Shown here piece after piece: positions 10,361-28,121 of a DNA stretch of 29,406 bases (position 1 is the stretch's first letter; each line of letters begins with the position of its first letter). Location of the stretch: IMG/VR virus record IMGVR_UViG_3300044616_001173, positions 1-29,406 of that record. One strand, given 5' to 3'. The position numbers and the translations under genes are program-made. The notes under the pieces were generated by a model. The model did not search any database and was not told the origin of the DNA. It saw only the letters and a list, made by a program, of their open reading frames with translations. This DNA comes from a virus.

Positions 10361-13300
10361 ATGGCTGAAATTGATGATCTTATCAAGGATATTGATGATG
10401 TTCTTGGAAATAAAGAGGAACCTCAAACTAAAGAAGTTGAAGTTAAAGATGAAACAGATGAATTAATTAGCGAAATAGAATCTGTCTTATCTCCTCAACA
10501 ACCTGCTGAAGAAAAGCCAAAGGAAGAAATTCCGCAGGCGGTTACGCCCGAAAAGCCAAAAGAAGAACTGCCAAAAGCAGTTCCATCTGCTTTACCTGCT
10601 CCTACTCCAGTAAAAGAGCCAGAGGTTGATCTTTCAAAACCGAGCAACATTGTTCTTTCAGTAATTGGTGACAAAGACGAAGCAGAGTTTACGCCAGCAG
10701 ATAGGGATTTAATTAAATCTTTAGATGCCGCAGATTTAAATGAATTCACTAAAGGCAGACCTGATGTATTTTTAGATGACGATCAAGAGCGTCAGATATT
10801 TAATTATCAACGCGAGTTAAGAAAATCATCTCCGTATGCTAAAATTCCTTCAAATTGGGAAGAATGGTATAATTTAGGTGCGGCGGCATCTGAAGATTTA
10901 GCAGATGTCGGGGTAATGACAGCAGACCTTTTGGGTAGTGTTCTGAAAGGCGGGGCAAAAGCGGTTGAGTATGGTGCGCCAGCGTTGCTTGGAATGACAT
11001 CTGAATACGCCGAGGCACTTGCGGCTGAAAAATTGTTGCCAGAAGATAAAAAAGCTGAAATTGAAAATTGGCGCAAACGAGCATGGCAAATTGCTAATAC
11101 TCCAGTAAAAGGTGGAGAAGAACAAAATCCTGACGCATATACTGACGCAAAGTATCTTGCCAAAATAAAAGAGAATTTAACTCCAGAGCAAATTGCAGGA
11201 ATTGAAAAAGATTTTGCCGAGAAACGATTAAAAGCAAAACAAGTTCCATTTTCTTATACATCAGAATTAGCTTCATTGCCAGAAAGTGTAGCATTTACTG
11301 CAACTAAAGTTGCATCTGGCGGAATGCAGTTATGGGATAATGCAAGCGAGAAATTTGGATTGCAAGATGAAGAAACATCTTTTCAACGCTATAAAGCAAG
11401 GCGCGAAGTAGATACCGCTCAAGCCAAATTATCCAAGGCAGAACCCAGAACATGGGCGCGAGTAATGGATACTTACTATGCTCCAGTTTTAAAATCGTTT
11501 TCAAGCCTTATTCATCCATCCGTTAAGGAATACATGATCATGTATCCTGAATTGAGTAGTTATGAGGCGGCATCTAAACGCGAAGCTGACATCGAAAACA
11601 ATGTGATTGCTGTAGTCGATGATGTTAAAAAATCGATTCCAGAAACTGATCCTAACATGGCGGCATTTGGTTCTGTAACCATTCCGGGGCAATTTGGTGT
11701 AGATGTATTTGGTTATGCTTATTCTGTTGTGCAAGCATCGAAGATGCTGACTCCTATTGCTAAATTACAATTTAAAAAATTAGGCTTATCTGACGATCAG
11801 ATTAATAATTTGGAAAAAACGGCACAAGAAGTTTTAAAGAAGAAAGAATTAAGCCGTTTAGAAGGCTTGCAAAAGCCCGGATTGATTGAGCGAGCGGCAG
11901 GAGCAACTGCAAGAGGTATTGAAAAAACTGGCGATTACCTTGAAAGAAGCCAAACATGGCAAGCGATTACGAGAGCCGCGCCTGCCGTTACCGGAGCAAC
12001 AATTGGATATCAAGTAAATCCTGAAAATCCTTTTGCTGGATTAGGATTGGGTGCTTTAGGTGGAGTGGGTGCAAAATATGGAGTTAAAACTTTAGTTGAT
12101 GTACCAAAAGTAATTAAAGAAGTTCAAGCCGCACGAAGAATTTCTGCTGGAGGTAGTGCAGGGCCACTTGCAACTTTAAAATCAATTGCTAAACAGCAAG
12201 ATGAAGTTAAAACACTAACAACAAAATTAAAGACGCTTGCGGAGGGAACGGATGAATATATCGAAACCAAGAAAGCGTTGGATGTAGCAAAATCTAGGGT
12301 AAAAGATGAAGGAATTGTTGATTACGAAGGAATTGGAAGGGTAAGTGATACGACAAAACGCATCTTGCGATTTGTAGGAGATGATACAATAGCCAATATT
12401 GGCGAATATGCTCGACTTGGAATCGAGCCTACACTTGTTGGATTGGCTACAGGAATTATCGATTCTTCAGACGAGGAAGAGCTAAAGACAATGATTGCTC
12501 AAGGATTGGTGTTTTCTTTGGGCGGCAGGGCGGTTCAGCAGGGTTATCACAAGTTTGTAGGTGAAGACCCTGTAATCCAGATGCGAAAGGCAAAGCAAGC
12601 CAATATGGACGCTTTGAAGGCATATCGCGATTCGACGCCTGAAACGCGAGGTGAGATTGATAAATTGACCGATTGGGATTTGGTTATTAATCGCCAAGCA
12701 AAAAAAGTAGCAGATACCGAGGCTGAAGTTCAGAGACTGGTAAACGAATCTCCTGACAACAAAAAAATTGAAGAGGCAGAGAAAAGGCTAGAGGCAGAGA
12801 AGAAATCTTTGTCATTGTTGAAAACGGCAAATGTTCAGACTCGAAATGAATTCGGAAGGCAGTTCCTGAATCAACTGGGAAGGAACAACGCTCTTTTGAA
12901 TGGAACATTAAGGGCGGGTCAAAATAATGTTGGGATTAATATTTTAACAACCCAACAAATTTTTGATCATTTCCGTAAAAATCCGCAATGGCAAAATGTG
13001 CCAGATGAGGTTTTGATGGAATACGCTTCTCAACAAGGTTTCTATTCTGGAACGGGAGGAACCGAATTCCGACCCGGTGTTAATGTGTCGGATGCGGCAA
13101 GAAGCATGACATTCGATCCAGCTAAACCTTCGATTGTTATTAACTCTGACGCTTTGCGAGATCGAATCGAGCTTTTCGGAGAAACGCCAATCGATGCATT
13201 GAACCATGAAACAGGTCACGCAATTCTTCGCATCAAAGAAATCCAAGATGCGGTTGCAGATGCTAGTAAGTTATTATTCACTAATGAAATCACAGATGCG

Positions 13301-16300
13301 TCTGGTAATGTTAAAGAAATTACGACTGGATTGTATAGTGAGGAGCAATTGAATTCTTTGTTCAAGGATCAGTATTTAAAAAACAGATCAAAAGATGAAA
13401 TTGCGAGATTGGGAACGGGACTTGGTCTGTGGGATGCCAATACGAATTCTTTAAACAAGAAAAAAGTAGCCAACTATATGCAGGAAGAAATTCTTGCTGA
13501 ATTATTTTCTAATACATTATCTCGCAATCTTGGTAAAAACATAGATTCAAAGCAAGTTCACTTGATTGATATCGCTCGACTAAAGTTAAAGAACAAACTT
13601 TTCAAGAATGCCGTTACAAAAATGCTTGGATTTGGCATGGATGGAGATGTGTTCTCTAAAGCTACTGGAGCAACATTGACTCCAGACGCTCAAAGCGCAT
13701 CAAGGAACGCATTGCGAATACTTGAAAGCATTAATGGTGACATCACAACGATTGCAGAACAACCTGAAACCGCACCAATCTCTAAAGCCGATATTCGTAA
13801 GAGCAAGATTGCGGCTGAACGCTATGGCATGGATTCTGGATTGTTTGCAACAAAGGTTCAGGCGCAGGTTTTTGACGCTAATGGAAACCCTGTAGGGGAT
13901 GCCGTTGATGTAACTGATCCAAGTGTTTTTGAAGGTTCTTGGAGAATCAGCAAAGACGGAGAGGAAAGGTTATCTGGATATGGTCAAATCCCTCTAGAAT
14001 TGCGACAATTGCAAGTTCCCGAAGGGGGAACTTTGTCGATTAAGAAAAAAATTATAACTGAAGTAGATGGAGTTACTCCAAAGTTGTTAAAGCCTTCTGA
14101 CTTGCGAAAGATAAAAAAAGATCGCGCAGAGTTATTCAAGCAAGCAATTGATACTCCTGACTACGGAACTCCGGGGCGATTTGAGCCTGTATCCGAAGGA
14201 TCAGAATCCTATCGTGGAACATTTACTCCAGCACAGATAAAAGCAATTCAAGAACTTCCTGAAGGAATCGTTCCGCTTAAAATTAAGAAGTATCTTTTAG
14301 AATTAAACGAAGCAATTGTTAGGCGCGATGGAACTCGTTTCTTTGTCGATTATGCCGCAGTAATGGATGACAATGGAAATTATAAAGCATTCTCTCCAAA
14401 AATTTATGATGTTGTTCCTATTGGGTTGCAACTATCTACGGCAGGCAATTTTCTAGTCACAACGATATCAGTTGGTCGAATGATGTCCAAGTTAAATGCT
14501 TGGTCAGATCGGATGCCCAATCGACTTTCCCCTTGGAATGGAAGTAAAGAAGCATTCTGGAATGAATTTTCTACAAAGTATTTGGATAACTGGTCGAAAG
14601 GAATTCAAGGTAGTGGATACAACGAGCGCGGAGAAGCTATAGGTAGCAACCAATTAAGCGATGATGTTGCCGTAGCAGAGCAGAAGAAATCAATATTTAA
14701 TGACTTCTTGAATTTATTTAAGAATGAAACTGAAGTGTTGAATCTTGATAGGACTAAAATTCCTAAACGCAAGGGCGACGAGAAAAACAAGAGCATAGAT
14801 CGAACAATTATGTCCATGCGAATCGATCACATGGCAGAGTTATTAGATGCTCAAGACCTGCCTAAACTGCCGATTGATTACGGAAAAGCAATAATCAACT
14901 TCCTTCCTGCCGAAACTGCCGAAATCGAAGCACCATCTGGCGAGCGTGGATTCAAGTCTAAATTGCAAATGGAAATCCAACGCAATTTCAAAGGCGCGAA
15001 GGCAACGCCAGAGCAAATGAAGGCAGTTTTGAACAACCCGCAGAATGTCAAAGCGGAGGAGGTTAAGTGGTCTGGAGTCAATGACGCAATTGACAGGCTT
15101 GCAAGCGAGAACAACGGCAAAGTTCCTGTGCAAGAATTGCTTAATTATCTGCGTGATGAGGGACAAGTTAAATTTGAAGAGGTAACACTTGGTGGGAAAG
15201 AACCATTTGATGCAAATCGTCTTGCTGAACTTGAGGCAGAATATAAAAACTTAAAAGATCATCCCGTTGATGATCCATCATTTGGCGAAGAGAAGTATGA
15301 TGAGTTGATTCGTTTGATGAATATCAGGGATCAAAGCACTACTGATACGCTTTACGAAGAGGCTGAACGAGTGATGAGGTTAGCTCAACAGGCTCAAAGG
15401 CGTGGTGACAAAAAGACTGCTGAAAAGTATTTTAGAGAGAATGAATTCTTAAATACGCGAGCAGAGAAATTAGATTTGCAAGGCGAGGGATTAGCTAATC
15501 CTCCTAAATTCGCAAGCCTCGTCCTCCCCGGTGGTGAAAACTATCGTGAAGTTGTGATGGCAATGCCTGAAAAATCTGAATTATCCTATTTAATCTCAAA
15601 AAAAGACGGATCAGGATTAATTAAAACTTTTGATACTGAAAAAGAAGCTAAAGATTTTTATAATAATTTAGAAAATAAAAATGAATATGAAATTCAAAGT
15701 TTCACGCAACCTAAAGATGTAAAATATACTTCATCTCATTTCCCTGACATCCCTAACTATGTAGCGCATATGCGTCTCAATGAGCGCACAGATGCCGAAG
15801 GCAACGATGGATTGTTCGTTGAGGAATTCCAGTCTGATCGGCATCAGGCGGGTAGGGAAAGAGGGTATGAAGGTGACATTAAACCTATTTCAGCAGAAGA
15901 AAATAAACGATTGTCTCAATTAACAAGAGAACTTTTCGAGCTTGAATATAATGGAATTGATGAATCAAATCCTACTCAAGAATTTATCGAATTAAATCGT
16001 GAATATACTGAACTTTCAAATAGGTCTGAAAAATATATTAAATCAAATGTTCCAGATGCACCTTTCCGCAAAGATTGGTCATTACAACTCTTCAAACGAG
16101 CATTGCGCGATGCCGTAGAGTCTGGCAAGAAATGGATCGGCTGGACTACTGGTATTGAACAGGTCAAGCGATACGAAAATCAATTTCGTCAGGCAGTTGA
16201 TGAGATTACTTGGAATCAACCAAAAGGTGATCCAAGGAAGAATTTCGCGGCGACTAAAAATGGCAGAACTGTTATTACTGGCAAGATCAAAGAAGATGGA

Positions 16301-19300
16301 ACTGTCTACGATTCAACTATTCCAGACGCGAACGAAATGCCATTGAGCGAAGTTGTAGGCAAGTCAGTTGCCGCAAAGATTCTTGCTGAAAACTCTGGAA
16401 CTGCCAAAGGCAACGACCTGACAATCGGCGGCGAAGGCATGAAAGGATTCTACGACACAATCGTTCCAAAAGAGATTGGCAAGTATGTAGACAAGATGGG
16501 TGGGAGGGTTGAGAAATCTAAACTTGCAGATGGTGGGGGTCTGCGAATTGAAAAAGACGGCGCGTCATTTGTCGTGGTTGCATCCGATGGAACTACACTT
16601 GGCGCCTATGAAACAAGAGAACAAGCCGATGCACGAATCTTTGAGCTAGATGGCGTGAAGCCATCCACTCCCATCTGGCGAGTAAACATCACGCCGCAGA
16701 TGGAGAATGTCGTTCGCGCAGGGCAGTTGCAATTTATGCCTGCTGAAGTTGACGCTCGCTATATCGACCTTGAAGCAAAAGCCAAATCAGGGGACAAGAG
16801 AGCTGCAGCGGAAGCGCAGAGGATGGTTTATGAGGCGGCGAAGGCTGTAGATGCGTTACCTAAAGTGCAAATTGTAGATTACTATGGTGAACCAAAATAT
16901 ACTGTTTTATTTGATGGTGAGGAGCAGACATCTAGATATATGGATCGCAACGGGAAGCGACCATTACCTGTTCAAAACAGGGATACCGCAGAGGAAATTG
17001 CATTGGAAATATTTGAGCAACATAAAGAAGATTTTGATACTTTCGACACATTCACATATGACGATGCAGGCGCATTAATCCCGCTATCCGAGAGGTTCCA
17101 GTCTGCAACTCCTGACATTCGCTTCATGCCTGCGGAACAACCAACCAAATACGAGCCGATCTCGCCTCGTATTCGCCCACTAGAAGGCATATCCGCACCA
17201 ACCAAGGTAGTTGAAGCGAAAGCACCTGCATTGCGTGAAATTGAGCCTCCTGTGAGGGCCAAGGCTATGTTGCCTGATATGGAGTTGGAACCTACTATCT
17301 CCGAAAAACCGCAAAGTTCGGAGATGATAGGTGATAAATCAAAACAACAAATTTCTATTGATGATTTTAAAAAACAATTAGAAAAACAACAAACTTTAGA
17401 CCTTGAAGAAGATCAAGTTTCAATTCCAAAATTTAATGACAAAACAGACAATTTTGTTGACACATTGATTTCTGGAAAAGCTCATTTGATGGTAAGAAAT
17501 AAAGAAGATGTTTCAGAATATGGGCCGCATGAGTTTTTTATATTAGATAACAATGATAATCCTATCGGATTTTCTCGTTTAACAAAAACTCCAAAAGAAG
17601 TGTCTATAAATTTAATTAAAATTAATGAAGATTATAGAGGGCAAGGAATTGGTTCTAAATTTTATAAGTATTGGTTAGATAAAGGTTTATCTGTAAAAAG
17701 CGATAAAGAAATAACAAATGACACTCAAGCACTTTATTCTTCATTAGCTCGTCAAGGTTATGGTTATGATATTGAAAATGATAGAGCAATATTAAAACCT
17801 ACTATCTCCGAAAAACCTATACAATCTTCTGACATAATCACTAGTGCAAAACCTGCTCCAGACGCAGTTATCAAGCCATTCTCCAACGCTTTAGTGTCAT
17901 CCGCTGGACTCATCAACTTCCTTCCTGCTTATCATGGCACTCCATTTGAAGTGGACAAGTTCAGCACCGCGAAGATCGGCACTGGCGAAGGAGCGCAAGC
18001 TTATGGCTGGGGGCTGTATTTTGCACAAGCAAAAGCGGTTGGAGAAGGATACCGAGATCAACTCGGCGGCATTCGGTTGATCACCGCAGACGGGCAGATG
18101 GCAGACAACATTGTGTCTACACCGGGGGCGAAAAAAATACTCAAAGAAGCTCGGGCTTTTTGGAAGCAAACAAAATCGCTGGATGGTTTTGTAAAACAAT
18201 TGGAGTCATCAAAATCCCAATCAAAGGTTTGGGCAGCGCAAGGCTATAATGTCGAATCCAACTCGCAATATGTAAAAGATGTAGACGAGGTTTTGTCGGT
18301 AATTAAAGACACAACCCCAACCCCGACAGGCAACCTCTACAAAGTCGATCTTGATGTAAAAGACGAAGACTTGCTTGATTGGGATAAGCCATTGAGCGAG
18401 CAGAGTGAGAAGCTGAAGGCGGTGAATAAAGCCTTGCAGGCAGTAACGGGCCAAAAAGAATACTTCCAAGCGTGGGCTGAAAACTTGACGGGTTCATGGC
18501 TTTATCATGCTACCGCAAAAATTATTTCATCCGCGACAAGCAAAACGGAAGATTTTTCAAGGACTGCTTCCACGAACGAGTTCAAACTTGCATCTGAAGC
18601 ATTAGCCAAGGTAGGCATCCCCGGCATACGCTACCTTGATGGAACTTCGCGTAAACAAGGCGAAGGCACATACAACTATGTCGTATTCGACGAGAATCTG
18701 ATTAAGATTCTCGATAAGAACGATAAACCTGTGAAAGACGAGTTGCCTAGATCAACTGGCTTGCAGTTCTTGCCTCAACAAATTGAAGAAAAAATAATTG
18801 AAACAGCAGTAAAAAATAAAGATGGAAGTATAATTAGTTATCCAAATAAGAATCATGCTATGATTATGGAAGAAACTGATTATAATCTTGATGCTGGAGA
18901 ATTTCCTCCAATGGAAAACTTTGGTTTTATAACAAATACTGGAAGATTTGTTAATCAAAAAGAAGCGCAAGAAATAGCTAAAAAATCAAAACAAGTTGAG
19001 GGAAATCAACAAATTAGCGGAGAGTTAGTATCAAGGCAAAATATTGCATTTCTTCCAGAGCAAATTGATTCAAGTACATCTGTTAAATCTTTGACTGAAA
19101 ATGAAAATTACAAAGACGCAAAATACAATGGCAATCCAATGTTTGCGTATAATTTAGCAAAAAAATTCTTAACTGATGAAGTAATTACCTCGGTCAATTC
19201 TAAAATAAATCCAGAAGAACCTGCTATAATCATACCTGTTTCTGCAATTGAAGGTGAAGACCTCAATACAATCCCATTGGCAGTTGCTGATATTTTGAGT

Positions 19301-20803
19301 TGGAAATTAAATATTCCAGTTTCTGTGGATATTGTTAAAACTTCAAAACAACACAATACTGGAGCCTCGGCTCAAGATCGAGCAAGCAATATTCATTCTT
19401 GGGCTGGGAAAAAACCAAAAGAAGGAACGCAGATAATTTTAGTTGATGACACATATACTACAGGTCAAACATTGCGTAGCCTAGCTGATTATGTTGGAGA
19501 ACCGACTGCAATCGTCACATTGGCATCTGGTAGGTATGGGAAAAAATTTGACCTGCCAATCGAACTAGAAAAAAAATTGCTTGATAAAGCGGGAATCACA
19601 AAAGAAGATTTTATTTCAAATTATGGCAAAGAACCAAATGCAGTCCTTACCGGAGCGCAAGCCCAGCAATACCTCCTCAATGGAGCAAAAGGAAAAGAAG
19701 GATTATTCAGCCGATTTCCTTCGCGACTTGGCAAGGCGAAAACTAGATCAGATTCGCAATTACAGGATGCAGGTAGAAACAGAAGAGTAGACACAGAAGA
19801 ATACATTGGCTTGAACTTCTTGCCGTCAGATAAGGATTCTGAATACGCAAAACAACTTGAATTTGCGTTTCCAAAAGGCCCGAAAACTTTAACCTACTTT
19901 TCTGGAATTGGAACATGGGAGCAAGGATTGAAGGGTGAAATTGATCCTCAATATGCTGTAGAATATGATCCAGCTAAAGCCGCCGCATATCGAGCGGCAA
20001 ATGGCGATCACATGATTGAGGGAGATGTGACTCAAATTGATCCCAAAAGATTTATTGGCATTGAATATTTTCACGCATCTCCAGTGTGTAAAAATTATAG
20101 CCTCTTAAAAGACCCAACCAGAGGTGGTGAAGAAAGCGATCTAGACATAAGGAGCGCAGATGCTGTCAATCGTGTTCTTGAAACTTGCAAGCCTAAATTT
20201 TTCACTCTTGAAAATGTTGGCGGCTATAAAAAATCTGACGCATACGCAAGCATTAAAAAAACATTAACAGATTTAGGGTATAAATTTGATGAAGCAATTT
20301 ATAAAGCAAACGAATACGGGTCACCGACTGACAGAAAGAGACTACTACTTCGCGCAACCTTGAGCGGTGAACTTCCTACTCCAATAAAAAAACAAGGCGG
20401 GAATTGGTATGATACAATTGAAGATATCGTAAATGACCTTCCTGATGCTCCACTAAAGGGAGCAAACTTCATTTGGAGAGAATTAAACAAGGTTGGTATC
20501 GATCCTAAAAATGTTCCATACCCAATATTAATTGCAGGTGGTGGATCATTCCAACAAGTCCCTTGGAGAAGCCCAGACGAACCTGCTTATACTTTTACAA
20601 CGAATCAAAATAATCTTGACCGCATTTTGTTGCCCGGAGGAATTTCAAAACGAGTAACAGGGCGAGCAAAAGCACGAATGTCTGGATTCTCTGATGATTT
20701 CATCTTGCCAGACAATGATAGACTTGCTAATATCGTAATAGGAAATGGTGTGCCGCCTGACCTTGTAAAAAATGTCATTGGCCCAATGTTTGAAAATAAA
20801 TAA
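10361..20803 (+). CDS. Giant polyvalent virion protein with peptidase, GNAT, ART, PRTase and C5 methyltransferase domains
   Basis: 3480 residues. Residues 1-110 are acidic and Pro/Glu-rich. About 170-730 contain hydrophobic, Gly-rich segments. A zinc peptidase motif HETGH sits at 949-953, with downstream acidic residues 1042-1047 as possible third ligand. A phage cassette spans about 1570-2050 (F1823-QSD, W1925-IGWTTG). A GNAT loop, YRGQGIG, is at 2425-2431. An ADP-ribosyltransferase-like domain runs about 2524-2790 (HGT 2525-2527, YGWGLYF 2548-2554, GIRYLDG 2755-2761). A phosphoribosyltransferase PRPP loop, VDDTYTTGQT, is at 3028-3037. A full C5 cytosine methyltransferase occupies 3178-3480: FSGIG 3180-3184, catalytic Cys3243 in SPVCKNYS, ENV 3284-3286, DRKR 3324-3327, GNG 3461-3463. 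This matches the 'polyvalent protein' class of phages, thought to enter the cell with the DNA. Processing and expression are inference. Confidence 0.9.
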   Translation: MAEIDDLIKDIDDVLGNKEEPQTKEVEVKDETDELISEIESVLSPQQPAEEKPKEEIPQAVTPEKPKEELPKAVPSALPAPTPVKEPEVDLSKPSNIVLSVIGDKDEAEFTPADRDLIKSLDAADLNEFTKGRPDVFLDDDQERQIFNYQRELRKSSPYAKIPSNWEEWYNLGAAASEDLADVGVMTADLLGSVLKGGAKAVEYGAPALLGMTSEYAEALAAEKLLPEDKKAEIENWRKRAWQIANTPVKGGEEQNPDAYTDAKYLAKIKENLTPEQIAGIEKDFAEKRLKAKQVPFSYTSELASLPESVAFTATKVASGGMQLWDNASEKFGLQDEETSFQRYKARREVDTAQAKLSKAEPRTWARVMDTYYAPVLKSFSSLIHPSVKEYMIMYPELSSYEAASKREADIENNVIAVVDDVKKSIPETDPNMAAFGSVTIPGQFGVDVFGYAYSVVQASKMLTPIAKLQFKKLGLSDDQINNLEKTAQEVLKKKELSRLEGLQKPGLIERAAGATARGIEKTGDYLERSQTWQAITRAAPAVTGATIGYQVNPENPFAGLGLGALGGVGAKYGVKTLVDVPKVIKEVQAARRISAGGSAGPLATLKSIAKQQDEVKTLTTKLKTLAEGTDEYIETKKALDVAKSRVKDEGIVDYEGIGRVSDTTKRILRFVGDDTIANIGEYARLGIEPTLVGLATGIIDSSDEEELKTMIAQGLVFSLGGRAVQQGYHKFVGEDPVIQMRKAKQANMDALKAYRDSTPETRGEIDKLTDWDLVINRQAKKVADTEAEVQRLVNESPDNKKIEEAEKRLEAEKKSLSLLKTANVQTRNEFGRQFLNQLGRNNALLNGTLRAGQNNVGINILTTQQIFDHFRKNPQWQNVPDEVLMEYASQQGFYSGTGGTEFRPGVNVSDAARSMTFDPAKPSIVINSDALRDRIELFGETPIDALNHETGHAILRIKEIQDAVADASKLLFTNEITDASGNVKEITTGLYSEEQLNSLFKDQYLKNRSKDEIARLGTGLGLWDANTNSLNKKKVANYMQEEILAELFSNTLSRNLGKNIDSKQVHLIDIARLKLKNKLFKNAVTKMLGFGMDGDVFSKATGATLTPDAQSASRNALRILESINGDITTIAEQPETAPISKADIRKSKIAAERYGMDSGLFATKVQAQVFDANGNPVGDAVDVTDPSVFEGSWRISKDGEERLSGYGQIPLELRQLQVPEGGTLSIKKKIITEVDGVTPKLLKPSDLRKIKKDRAELFKQAIDTPDYGTPGRFEPVSEGSESYRGTFTPAQIKAIQELPEGIVPLKIKKYLLELNEAIVRRDGTRFFVDYAAVMDDNGNYKAFSPKIYDVVPIGLQLSTAGNFLVTTISVGRMMSKLNAWSDRMPNRLSPWNGSKEAFWNEFSTKYLDNWSKGIQGSGYNERGEAIGSNQLSDDVAVAEQKKSIFNDFLNLFKNETEVLNLDRTKIPKRKGDEKNKSIDRTIMSMRIDHMAELLDAQDLPKLPIDYGKAIINFLPAETAEIEAPSGERGFKSKLQMEIQRNFKGAKATPEQMKAVLNNPQNVKAEEVKWSGVNDAIDRLASENNGKVPVQELLNYLRDEGQVKFEEVTLGGKEPFDANRLAELEAEYKNLKDHPVDDPSFGEEKYDELIRLMNIRDQSTTDTLYEEAERVMRLAQQAQRRGDKKTAEKYFRENEFLNTRAEKLDLQGEGLANPPKFASLVLPGGENYREVVMAMPEKSELSYLISKKDGSGLIKTFDTEKEAKDFYNNLENKNEYEIQSFTQPKDVKYTSSHFPDIPNYVAHMRLNERTDAEGNDGLFVEEFQSDRHQAGRERGYEGDIKPISAEENKRLSQLTRELFELEYNGIDESNPTQEFIELNREYTELSNRSEKYIKSNVPDAPFRKDWSLQLFKRALRDAVESGKKWIGWTTGIEQVKRYENQFRQAVDEITWNQPKGDPRKNFAATKNGRTVITGKIKEDGTVYDSTIPDANEMPLSEVVGKSVAAKILAENSGTAKGNDLTIGGEGMKGFYDTIVPKEIGKYVDKMGGRVEKSKLADGGGLRIEKDGASFVVVASDGTTLGAYETREQADARIFELDGVKPSTPIWRVNITPQMENVVRAGQLQFMPAEVDARYIDLEAKAKSGDKRAAAEAQRMVYEAAKAVDALPKVQIVDYYGEPKYTVLFDGEEQTSRYMDRNGKRPLPVQNRDTAEEIALEIFEQHKEDFDTFDTFTYDDAGALIPLSERFQSATPDIRFMPAEQPTKYEPISPRIRPLEGISAPTKVVEAKAPALREIEPPVRAKAMLPDMELEPTISEKPQSSEMIGDKSKQQISIDDFKKQLEKQQTLDLEEDQVSIPKFNDKTDNFVDTLISGKAHLMVRNKEDVSEYGPHEFFILDNNDNPIGFSRLTKTPKEVSINLIKINEDYRGQGIGSKFYKYWLDKGLSVKSDKEITNDTQALYSSLARQGYGYDIENDRAILKPTISEKPIQSSDIITSAKPAPDAVIKPFSNALVSSAGLINFLPAYHGTPFEVDKFSTAKIGTGEGAQAYGWGLYFAQAKAVGEGYRDQLGGIRLITADGQMADNIVSTPGAKKILKEARAFWKQTKSLDGFVKQLESSKSQSKVWAAQGYNVESNSQYVKDVDEVLSVIKDTTPTPTGNLYKVDLDVKDEDLLDWDKPLSEQSEKLKAVNKALQAVTGQKEYFQAWAENLTGSWLYHATAKIISSATSKTEDFSRTASTNEFKLASEALAKVGIPGIRYLDGTSRKQGEGTYNYVVFDENLIKILDKNDKPVKDELPRSTGLQFLPQQIEEKIIETAVKNKDGSIISYPNKNHAMIMEETDYNLDAGEFPPMENFGFITNTGRFVNQKEAQEIAKKSKQVEGNQQISGELVSRQNIAFLPEQIDSSTSVKSLTENENYKDAKYNGNPMFAYNLAKKFLTDEVITSVNSKINPEEPAIIIPVSAIEGEDLNTIPLAVADILSWKLNIPVSVDIVKTSKQHNTGASAQDRASNIHSWAGKKPKEGTQIILVDDTYTTGQTLRSLADYVGEPTAIVTLASGRYGKKFDLPIELEKKLLDKAGITKEDFISNYGKEPNAVLTGAQAQQYLLNGAKGKEGLFSRFPSRLGKAKTRSDSQLQDAGRNRRVDTEEYIGLNFLPSDKDSEYAKQLEFAFPKGPKTLTYFSGIGTWEQGLKGEIDPQYAVEYDPAKAAAYRAANGDHMIEGDVTQIDPKRFIGIEYFHASPVCKNYSLLKDPTRGGEESDLDIRSADAVNRVLETCKPKFFTLENVGGYKKSDAYASIKKTLTDLGYKFDEAIYKANEYGSPTDRKRLLLRATLSGELPTPIKKQGGNWYDTIEDIVNDLPDAPLKGANFIWRELNKVGIDPKNVPYPILIAGGGSFQQVPWRSPDEPAYTFTTNQNNLDRILLPGGISKRVTGRAKARMSGFSDDFILPDNDRLANIVIGNGVPPDLVKNVIGPMFENK
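17289..17310 (+). repeat. Direct repeat, left copy, flanking the GNAT module
   Basis: 22 bases identical to 17796-17817, encoding the PTISEKP peptide at residues 2311-2317. The offset between copies is 507 bases, exactly 169 codons, so loss or gain of the module keeps the frame. Confidence 0.85.
17796..17817 (+). repeat. Direct repeat, right copy, flanking the GNAT module
   Basis: Second copy of the 22-base repeat, encoding PTISEKP at residues 2480-2486. The similarity continues imperfectly downstream at protein level (Q-S-S-(E/D)-x-I in both). The stretch between the copies contains the GNAT domain and is far more A/T-rich than either flank. Confidence 0.85.
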
Positions 20804-26754: not shown

Positions 26755-28098
26755 ATGTGGATACTACCATCACAACTCTTGAATTCTGCGCCGGGTATGG
26801 CGGCATTGGACTTGGACTCAAAAACATCTTTGGCGAGCGATTGCGAACCATCGCATATTGTGAGCTTGAGGGGTTCGCTCAAGCCAATCTCATCAGTAAA
26901 ATGGAAAAAGGACTCATGGATGTCGCACCTATTTGGAACGATCTTAAAACCTTCCCATACAGAAAGTTTCACGGACTGGTGGATATCTTCGTTTCTGGAT
27001 ATCCATGTCAACCATTTTCCAGCGCAGGAAAACGAGCAGGAAAAGAAGACCCAAGACATCTCTGGCCTTGGATCGCAGATGGAATTCGACTTCTTCAGCC
27101 AAGAATGTGCTTCCTTGAAAATGTCGAGGGACACATTTCGTTGGGACTCTCCACAGTCATCAGTGATCTGGAAGAACTGGGTTACAAAAGTTCGTTCGGA
27201 ATATTCAGTGCGAGTGAAGTTGGCGCAGTCCACCAAAGGAAAAGAGTCTTTATCATGGCCCACCGCAGCGACGAGGGATTTCAAGGGGGAAAGTGGTTCT
27301 GGAAGGCAGGAACGCAAGGGTCATCCAGCGGACACGCTACCGAATGCAGTAGCTCAATGGCCGACTCCAACGGCGGGGGAATGTCTGGATCAAGGAACGA
27401 ATTGGGAAACTCTGGCGAGGTTGGACAAGGGTGGACGAATACTTCGCAGAATGGCATCATTGGAAATGTCTGGCCCTCACGCCCCGGCCAACCACAATAC
27501 GCATGGGAACCGCCAAGAGTCGTGGCCAACTCCGACCGCACTCAACCGAGTGAGGGACGAGGAGACAATGGAGAAGTGCCTAAAGTTCAGGCAGGGCAAT
27601 GGACAGACAAGTGTTCCGCTTTATCTGGAGGAGAAGGTGAATTTAGAGGAGAAGTCATGGCGAACCCCGTCATCGTCGGACGAGGATGCCAAGAAGGAAG
27701 CGAATTGGGCAACGCCCCAAGCAAGCGATCATGTGGAGGGAGCGAGGACAGAGCTAACCAGCAACCAGAAGTGCTTGGGCAGGGACATGAAGCAGTGGGC
27801 AACTCCGATTGTGGGAGACTCTCATCTGGCATCGACACCGGAAGTTGCAGCGAAACGGATAGCGGAGGGCAAGACAACATTAAGCAGACAGAATGCGGGA
27901 AAATTAAACCAGAGATGGGTCGAAACATTGATGGGACTGCCTATGGGGTGGACATCGCCGAGTTGTCCAGCCTCTGTCATTCGGAATTGGCCGAAATTCG
28001 TGAGTGGATGGTTAAAGGCGACAACCGCACAGACGAACTACGATCCTGCGGAAATGGAGTTGTTCCAGCTACAGCAGAAAGAGCGTTCAGAGTCTTAA
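26755..28098 (+). CDS. Overlapping-frame ORF across the methyltransferase gene ('WPTPTA' protein)
   Basis: 447 codons without a stop, starting at an ATG that shares its G with the methyltransferase GTG. The product has six Trp-Pro-Thr-like units (W168-PT, W202-PTPTA, W257-PTPTA, W302-RTP, W318-ATP, W348-ATP) and a tail LNQRWVETLMGLPMGWT (384-400). Both 'WPTPxAxD' units and 'LNPxWVExLMGxPxGWT' tails are features I recall from annotated phage proteins, as is the start MWILPSQL and the block 'ASLKMSxDT ... DSPQSSxIWKxWVTK'. I cannot tell from memory whether those entries are real proteins or repeated misannotations of the same overlap. It may be a true dual-coding gene or a shadow. Confidence 0.45.
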   Translation: MWILPSQLLNSAPGMAALDLDSKTSLASDCEPSHIVSLRGSLKPISSVKWKKDSWMSHLFGTILKPSHTESFTDWWISSFLDIHVNHFPAQENEQEKKTQDISGLGSQMEFDFFSQECASLKMSRDTFRWDSPQSSVIWKNWVTKVRSEYSVRVKLAQSTKGKESLSWPTAATRDFKGESGSGRQERKGHPADTLPNAVAQWPTPTAGECLDQGTNWETLARLDKGGRILRRMASLEMSGPHAPANHNTHGNRQESWPTPTALNRVRDEETMEKCLKFRQGNGQTSVPLYLEEKVNLEEKSWRTPSSSDEDAKKEANWATPQASDHVEGARTELTSNQKCLGRDMKQWATPIVGDSHLASTPEVAAKRIAEGKTTLSRQNAGKLNQRWVETLMGLPMGWTSPSCPASVIRNWPKFVSGWLKATTAQTNYDPAEMELFQLQQKERSES

Positions 28099-28121
28099 TG
28101 GAAGAATTGATAAACAAATGA
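26757..28121 (+). CDS. C5 cytosine DNA methyltransferase (Dcm-like)
   Basis: 454 residues. Motif I is FCAGYGGIG (10-18), the catalytic loop PCQPFS (83-88, Cys84), ENV at 121-123, QRKR at 160-163 and motif X GNGVVP at 432-437. These are all the essential motifs of an enzyme that methylates cytosine C5 using S-adenosylmethionine. The start must be the GTG at 26757: no upstream ATG exists in frame after the stop at 26724, and the next ATG (codon 49) would lose motif I. Residues 167-360 are Gly/Ser/Asn-rich with recurring (M/V/L)-(A/G)-x-(S/P/A) units where a target-recognition domain is expected. A second ORF covers almost all of it in another frame. The stop overlaps the helicase start as ATGA. 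It probably protects phage DNA from host restriction. Confidence 0.9.
   Translation: MDTTITTLEFCAGYGGIGLGLKNIFGERLRTIAYCELEGFAQANLISKMEKGLMDVAPIWNDLKTFPYRKFHGLVDIFVSGYPCQPFSSAGKRAGKEDPRHLWPWIADGIRLLQPRMCFLENVEGHISLGLSTVISDLEELGYKSSFGIFSASEVGAVHQRKRVFIMAHRSDEGFQGGKWFWKAGTQGSSSGHATECSSSMADSNGGGMSGSRNELGNSGEVGQGWTNTSQNGIIGNVWPSRPGQPQYAWEPPRVVANSDRTQPSEGRGDNGEVPKVQAGQWTDKCSALSGGEGEFRGEVMANPVIVGRGCQEGSELGNAPSKRSCGGSEDRANQQPEVLGQGHEAVGNSDCGRLSSGIDTGSCSETDSGGQDNIKQTECGKIKPEMGRNIDGTAYGVDIAELSSLCHSELAEIREWMVKGDNRTDELRSCGNGVVPATAERAFRVLMEELINK
27255..27812 (+). repeat. Six-copy RTGGS-NNAC type DNA repeat read in two frames
   Basis: Copies begin at 27255, 27357, 27522, 27657, 27708 and 27798. A typical copy is ATGGCCGACTCCAACGGC. 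In the methyltransferase frame it reads MADSNG (others: MAHRS, VANSD, MANPV, LGNAP, VGNSD); in the overlapping frame it reads WPTPTA, or WPTAAT, WRTPSS, WATPQA and WATPIV. Spacings are irregular (102, 165, 135, 51, 90), all multiples of three. Confidence 0.7.

Follow-up and report, generated by a model that had tools for sequence, protein, structure and literature searches.

A phage C5-cytosine methyltransferase gene with two overlapping reading frames that may encode two subunits of one enzyme

The window analysed here is the whole 29,406-nucleotide stretch of the viral record IMGVR_UViG_3300044616_001173 (IMG/VR). It contains a C5-cytosine DNA methyltransferase gene with two long open reading frames on the same strand, which are referred to here as frame A and frame B (Table 1). 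Frame B is in +1 relative to frame A, and the two starts lie two bases apart. The first-pass annotation of this DNA had reported same-strand frames of 454 and 447 codons with overlapping starts, and both hold at the positions in Table 1. It had also proposed that the methyltransferase needs its GTG, and the next ATG of frame A is indeed found only at codon 49, past motif I. Among 117 related genes whose cores differ in sequence, 116 keep paired starts. The sole gene without the pair (L170) comes from a sequence that begins inside the gene. The start codons overlap as ATGTG in 79 genes and are spaced in 37, with B first in all of the spaced pairs (30 with ATGACATG, which are 5 bases apart, 6 at +8 and 1 at +17). 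Frame A starts with GTG only where it overlaps the ATG of B, and it starts with ATG in all spaced pairs. As far as these sequences can tell, the switch of A from GTG to ATG upon separation of the starts is as expected if both starts are needed. The ribosome-binding sites are only mildly purine-rich and are uninformative on the ratio of A to B.

Table 1. Positions of the two reading frames and of their parts in the window.
Feature	Position	Strand	Details and basis
Frame A: C5-cytosine DNA methyltransferase catalytic chain	26757..28121	+	454 aa, GTG start
Frame B: overlapping second protein, proposed recognition subunit	26755..28098	+	447 aa, ATG start
Overlapping start codons ATGTG (ATG of B, GTG of A)	26755..26759	+	Sequence
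A catalytic core, motifs I-VIII (residues 1-175)	26757..27281	+	AlphaFold model, M.HhaI alignment
A residues 184-404, predicted disordered linker over the module array of B	27306..27968	+	pLDDT ~30-40
A-frame conserved element WPSRPGQPQYAWEPPRVV inside the variable part	27471..27524	+	Invariant W239, P240, R242, P243, G244, Q247, E251, P253-V256
A motif X (NRTDELRSCGNGVVPATAERAF)	28023..28088	+	Invariant columns; helix 437-453 folded in AlphaFold model
B N-terminal segment under B-frame constraint (~residues 1-68)	26755..26958	+	SN/NS 1.41 (1.21-1.65)
A-dominated stretch, B little constrained (~codons 69-128)	26959..27138	+	SN/NS 5.25 (4.3-6.6), control-like
B helix WKNWVTKVRSEYSVR and surroundings (~residues 129-160)	27139..27234	+	SN/NS 0.88 (codons 129-155); conserved residues; model
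B array of WxTP modules (starts at B residues 168, 202, 257, 302, 318, 348)	27256..27900	+	Cassettes in other genes
B motif IX-like element KLNQRWVETLMGLPMGWT	27901..27954	+	Near invariant in relatives

Frame A carries motifs I (AdoMet site), IV (PCQ), VI (ENV), VIII, and X, by which it qualifies as a C5-cytosine DNA methyltransferase. It matches phrog_363 at 1e-50 and Pfam PF00145 at 2.9e-30, the latter with residues 6-175 and only positions 2-167 of the 324 in the profile. AlphaFold folds A only at residues 1-170, where pLDDT is mostly 83-93 with dips at 81-100 and 121-130, and at residues 437-453. The model aligns with M.HhaI over 194 residues (Z 17.4). Motif X (GNGVVPATAERAF) is present with an invariant core although the PF00145 match stops at motif VIII. 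No recognition domain or motif IX could be recognised in the A chain: the Pfam match ends at 167 of 324, residues 184-404 are unfolded in the model, and the best HMM match to motif IX covers 3 residues with a score of -4.7. A canonical single-chain enzyme is ruled out since A lacks motif IX.

A complete C5 domain lies elsewhere in the window. The open reading frame at 10361-20803 (3480 aa) is a polyvalent protein with a GNAT-like acetyltransferase match, a weak match to an ADP-ribosyltransferase of the polyvalent protein type, and a C-terminal C5 domain that covers profile positions 6-321. Motif IX (KRVTGRAKARMSGFSDDF, read by eye) is in frame there, and both other frames are full of stops. 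The phage thus encodes two C5 methyltransferases.

For the predicted product of frame B, searches of Pfam, NCBIfam and solved structures found nothing. It matches phrog_1008 at 3e-20, as do its relatives L023, L031 and L042. B alone is not predicted to fold (AlphaFold mean pLDDT 41.6), and its best parts are the helix at ~133-155 and residues 386-393. The model extends this helix over residues 133-161 with pLDDT up to ~72, and W139, R147, Y150, S151 and R153 are invariant. The six WPTP-type units and the distinctive tail that had been read in B on first inspection are both present, as the six WxTP units of Table 1 and as LNQRWVETLMGLPMGWT. The most conserved element of B reads KLNPRWVETLMGLPVGWT in most relatives, with LNxxWVxxLMGxPxGW near-invariant, and it lies ~32 codons before motif X, which is the position of motif IX in other C5 enzymes. 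Position and conservation are thus in line with the earlier suggestion that a motif IX-like element exists only in B, although the similarity in sequence falls short of significance. In HMM comparisons with canonical motif IX regions, the B tail scored no better than shuffled sequences, and only two actinophage proteins gave a weak signal over that background. In L023, L024, L030 and L042, phrog_1008 aligns with frame B as far as the motif IX element and with frame A at motif X. Going by these matches, the profile seems either to mix frames or to include members with IX and X joined.

IMG/VR was searched with single proteins and with alignments, and each alignment search listed more than 570 confirmed relatives, which is a lower bound. 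More distant relatives are found in bacterial assemblies, several of them from Verrucomicrobia, including Geminisphaera colitermitum TAV2. To avoid selection for B, its openness was assessed in 80 loci listed from the search that used the A alignment alone. The set includes loci that are nearly identical, and 77 of the 80 could be parsed. Frame B is open in 77 of 77, from its start to within about 34 codons or fewer of the A stop, and the third frame of the A-selected loci has a median of 18 stops. B-frame stops in many close homologues had been named beforehand as an outcome that would refute dual coding, and none were seen in these relatives. The window gene itself has no B-frame stop, and its third frame has 21 over the same span. 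Synonymous-codon shuffling of A gave a mean of 6.6 B-frame stops and never reached 0 in 2000 trials, while recoding of A with the codon usage of other window genes gave a mean of 16.4 and a minimum of 8.

Four relatives have unusual layouts. L153 and L196 each have one in-frame stop in A with B intact and with motif X of A still downstream; from sequence, these could be natural A-null alleles or assembly errors. In L045, the frame that begins at the B start ends in motif X of A. One indel in the module region could have fused the B N-terminus to the A C-terminus, and an assembly error is possible. In L011, B ends with KLNPRWVCVLMNLPVFWVKP after the motif IX-like element, and the frame that comes next contains an HNH-like stretch (CQECGSTN...HHKDRNPLNN...CASCH). 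The layout suggests that a homing endonuclease has entered between this element and motif X, with A open throughout.

Selection was assessed by classing nucleotide changes by their effect first on A and then on B as synonymous (S) or not (N). Rates come from 53 disjoint close pairs. The control consists of 46 ORF pairs from the flanking genes of 20 of these pairs, to which a fictitious +1 frame was assigned for the classing. Intervals are bootstraps over pairs. The SS sites are few, so ratios to SS are noisy and the values are approximate. The transition SN/SS ratio of the core is 0.35 (0.29-0.45) against 0.85 (0.73-0.99) in control genes, and NN/NS is 0.53 (0.47-0.58) against 0.84 (0.72-0.93). 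Constraint at A-synonymous sites, which had been proposed as a check, is therefore in excess. SN/NS is 4.13 in control genes, and the SN/NS profile along the core (Table 1) indicates that B is constrained at its N-terminus and at ~codons 129-155, and hardly between. When the module region was aligned via the A protein, the rates were NN 0.080, SN 0.152 and NS 0.224. Such an alignment favours A, yet NS still exceeds SN. With the whole 3′ part aligned by nucleotides, they were NN 0.082, SN 0.158, NS 0.297 and SS 0.597, and the sites that change A and are silent in B are the fastest after the few SS sites. Modules clustered on B protein similarity gave NS 0.298 and SN 0.059. The nucleotide-based rates are preferred because this clustering favours B. 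By these estimates, both frames are under purifying selection; in the 3′ half, conservation is stronger in B, with A still constrained.

It could be argued that A is the only gene, and that B is open through codon bias and repeat structure and is often misannotated. B has no curated domain match and is not folded by AlphaFold, and codons 69-128 show no B constraint, as this reading would have it, but it fails to account for a frame that is open in 77 of 77 relatives and that codon shuffles of the window gene never open. Changes that are silent in A and alter B are suppressed, the 3′ half conserves B better than A, and the start pairs are conserved. We regard this reading as very improbable, and the shuffles and the rates reject the idea that codon bias or repeat structure keeps the frame open. 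The openness of B in all 77 loci, the core SN/SS of 0.35 against 0.85 and the better conservation of B in the 3′ half support the other alternative of the first-pass annotation, that of dual coding.

The variable part of B is an array of modules, defined by splitting B at WxTP. Of the 507 modules of 113 genes, 106 are singletons and the others form 88 clusters with at least two members. A given module can be found at differing positions and in genes whose cores are down to 57% identical in nucleotides, and the modules of the window are shared with 3 to 14 other genes. Among the matches listed, the closest relative (L022) differs from the window by one module-block rearrangement. All 133 nucleotide matches between arrays are in frame. 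An identical module never occurs twice in one array, against 9.9 expected cases under random assortment and 9.3 with ordinal position kept. After thinning of similar arrays, 0 repeats were observed and 4.4 expected (P about 0.01). Array comparison thus identifies the WxTP units as cassettes that are shuffled between phages. The repeat units are coding modules of frame B, and the earlier alternative that repeats merely keep a noise frame open is rejected.

The main rival to two separate products is programmed frameshifting. Ribosomes would pass from A (motifs I-VIII) to B (modules and motif IX) and possibly back to A (motif X) to make one full-length enzyme, and the ORF overlap would be the frameshift zone. 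The order of motifs I-VIII in A, IX in B and X in A is collinear with a normal enzyme, the spacing between IX and X is normal, and both are found in one phrog_1008 profile. Two features of B nevertheless speak against frameshifting: its codons 1-68 and 129-155 are constrained although they precede any such junction, and it keeps an ATG of its own. In addition, constraint on A continues along the 3′ half as far as motif X. We consider frameshifting unlikely, though not negligible.

There are precedents for split C5 enzymes and for a B-type internal gene. M.EcoHK31I (YGGCCR) needs both a large and a small chain, and the coding sequence of the small chain lies within that of the large one in a different frame. 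Frame B of the window is likewise coded in another frame of the same gene, but it runs from a start that overlaps the A start to near the A end and does not have an internal start. In M.EcoHK31I, motifs I-VIII and X are on one chain and motif IX is on a second polypeptide (PMC3404938). The window A also has motifs I-VIII and X without IX. The predicted TRD of M.EcoHK31I is placed on the large chain in the literature, whereas here B is the likelier place by the folding model and the rates. The window B differs further in its extra constrained N-terminal part and in its variable array of exchanged modules. M.AquI (CYCGRG) is also a C5 methyltransferase split over two polypeptides. An enzyme of its type, in which the small chain carries the distal TRD, IX and X, is ruled out since motif X of the window gene is in frame A. 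The multispecific phage C5 methyltransferases of SPR and phi3T have tandem recognition modules, motif IX and the catalytic core in one frame and on one chain. The window gene, too, has modules in tandem in its variable region, and they are distinct, exchanged and non-repeated. The difference is that they lie in a second frame. A target of its own for each WxTP module is so far conjecture.

Nested versions of B are found in other phages. Paenibacillus phage Diva gp50 matches phrog_1008 at 1e-73, and in GenBank it is annotated as an internal gene of the methyltransferase gp49. Like the window B, it is a B-type product of the +1 frame nested in a C5 methyltransferase. Unlike it, gp50 starts ~60 codons inside gp49 with frame B closed upstream, has three W-type units only, and shows ~31% identity to the window B over the 3′ part. 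The same +1 frame occurs in Lacticaseibacillus phage R9.1 and in phages C72C1 and C75C1, in the last of these without annotation. B could also be a separate overprinted protein with another job, such as a regulator or an anti-restriction factor, with A complete alone. The N-terminal part of B, which has no known relative, leaves room for this. It is however improbable, as B always lies on a methyltransferase without motif IX and places a motif IX-like element where it belongs, and the shorter nested versions of Diva, R9.1 and C72C1 have the same placement.

Other phage enzymes are arranged differently. Streptococcus phages SpSL1 and IPP21 have canonical C5 enzymes with the +1 frame closed. In Streptomyces phage Darolandstone gene 38 (L223), the +1 frame remains free of stops across several LPTP units of the recognition region, and motifs IX and X are in the methyltransferase frame. 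This is perhaps an intermediate arrangement in actinophages. In Mycobacterium phage Chupacabra (genes 76 and 75; L221), motifs I-VIII are followed by a second ORF with an LPTP unit, a motif IX-like element and motif X, a layout that is AquI-like in its sequence. The IX-like elements of the two, FVEWMMGLPHG in Darolandstone and FSEWMMGWPEG in Chupacabra, are in the same frame as motif X.

We favour the reading that one phage gene gives two proteins from two frames, a catalytic subunit (A) and a recognition subunit (B), as in M.EcoHK31I. We put its probability at about 0.72; there are no expression or protein data, and the translation of B and the roles of the subunits are inferred. Points against it are that B alone has no predicted fold and no match to domain databases or solved structures, that the motif IX similarity of its tail is not significant, that SS sites are few, and that L153, L196 and L045 depart from the usual layout. 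Translation of B would start at the ATG two bases before the start of A and use the same ribosome-binding region. A would be the catalytic chain, in which a long flexible linker ties motifs I-VIII to motif X. B would consist of an N-terminal segment, a helix, the tandem WxTP array, which is taken as the DNA-recognition part, and an equivalent of motif IX. The two are inferred to bind each other and to assemble into one enzyme, in which B may supply the small (recognition) domain that is missing in A and set the target specificity. The product would protect phage DNA from restriction, which is likewise an inference. A more tentative extension, possible but not favoured, is that the array is combinatorial. 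Each WxTP module would be its own target recogniser, a role that rests on the inferred DNA recognition. Recombination that keeps both frames open would gain or lose modules, and repeats would be avoided since a second copy adds no protection. If true, one frame is where specificity evolves, and the DNA in its other frame is mainly the linker of the catalytic chain.

A literature search restricted to open-licence papers found no description of this phage family. Within the same literature, no account was found of a near-whole-gene overlap from a shared start, of two-frame rate evidence or of an exchangeable module array in a second frame. To our knowledge, it is rare outside small viruses for an overlap to exceed 400 codons and show measurable selection on both frames, and the many gene pairs available here allow frame-resolved rate tests. 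The findings suggest that many phage cytosine methyltransferases are annotated with only half of the enzyme, and in C75C1 only A is annotated. This would be a natural split enzyme with a seemingly modular and exchangeable recognition part, and it would make the change of methylation specificity by phages directly testable.
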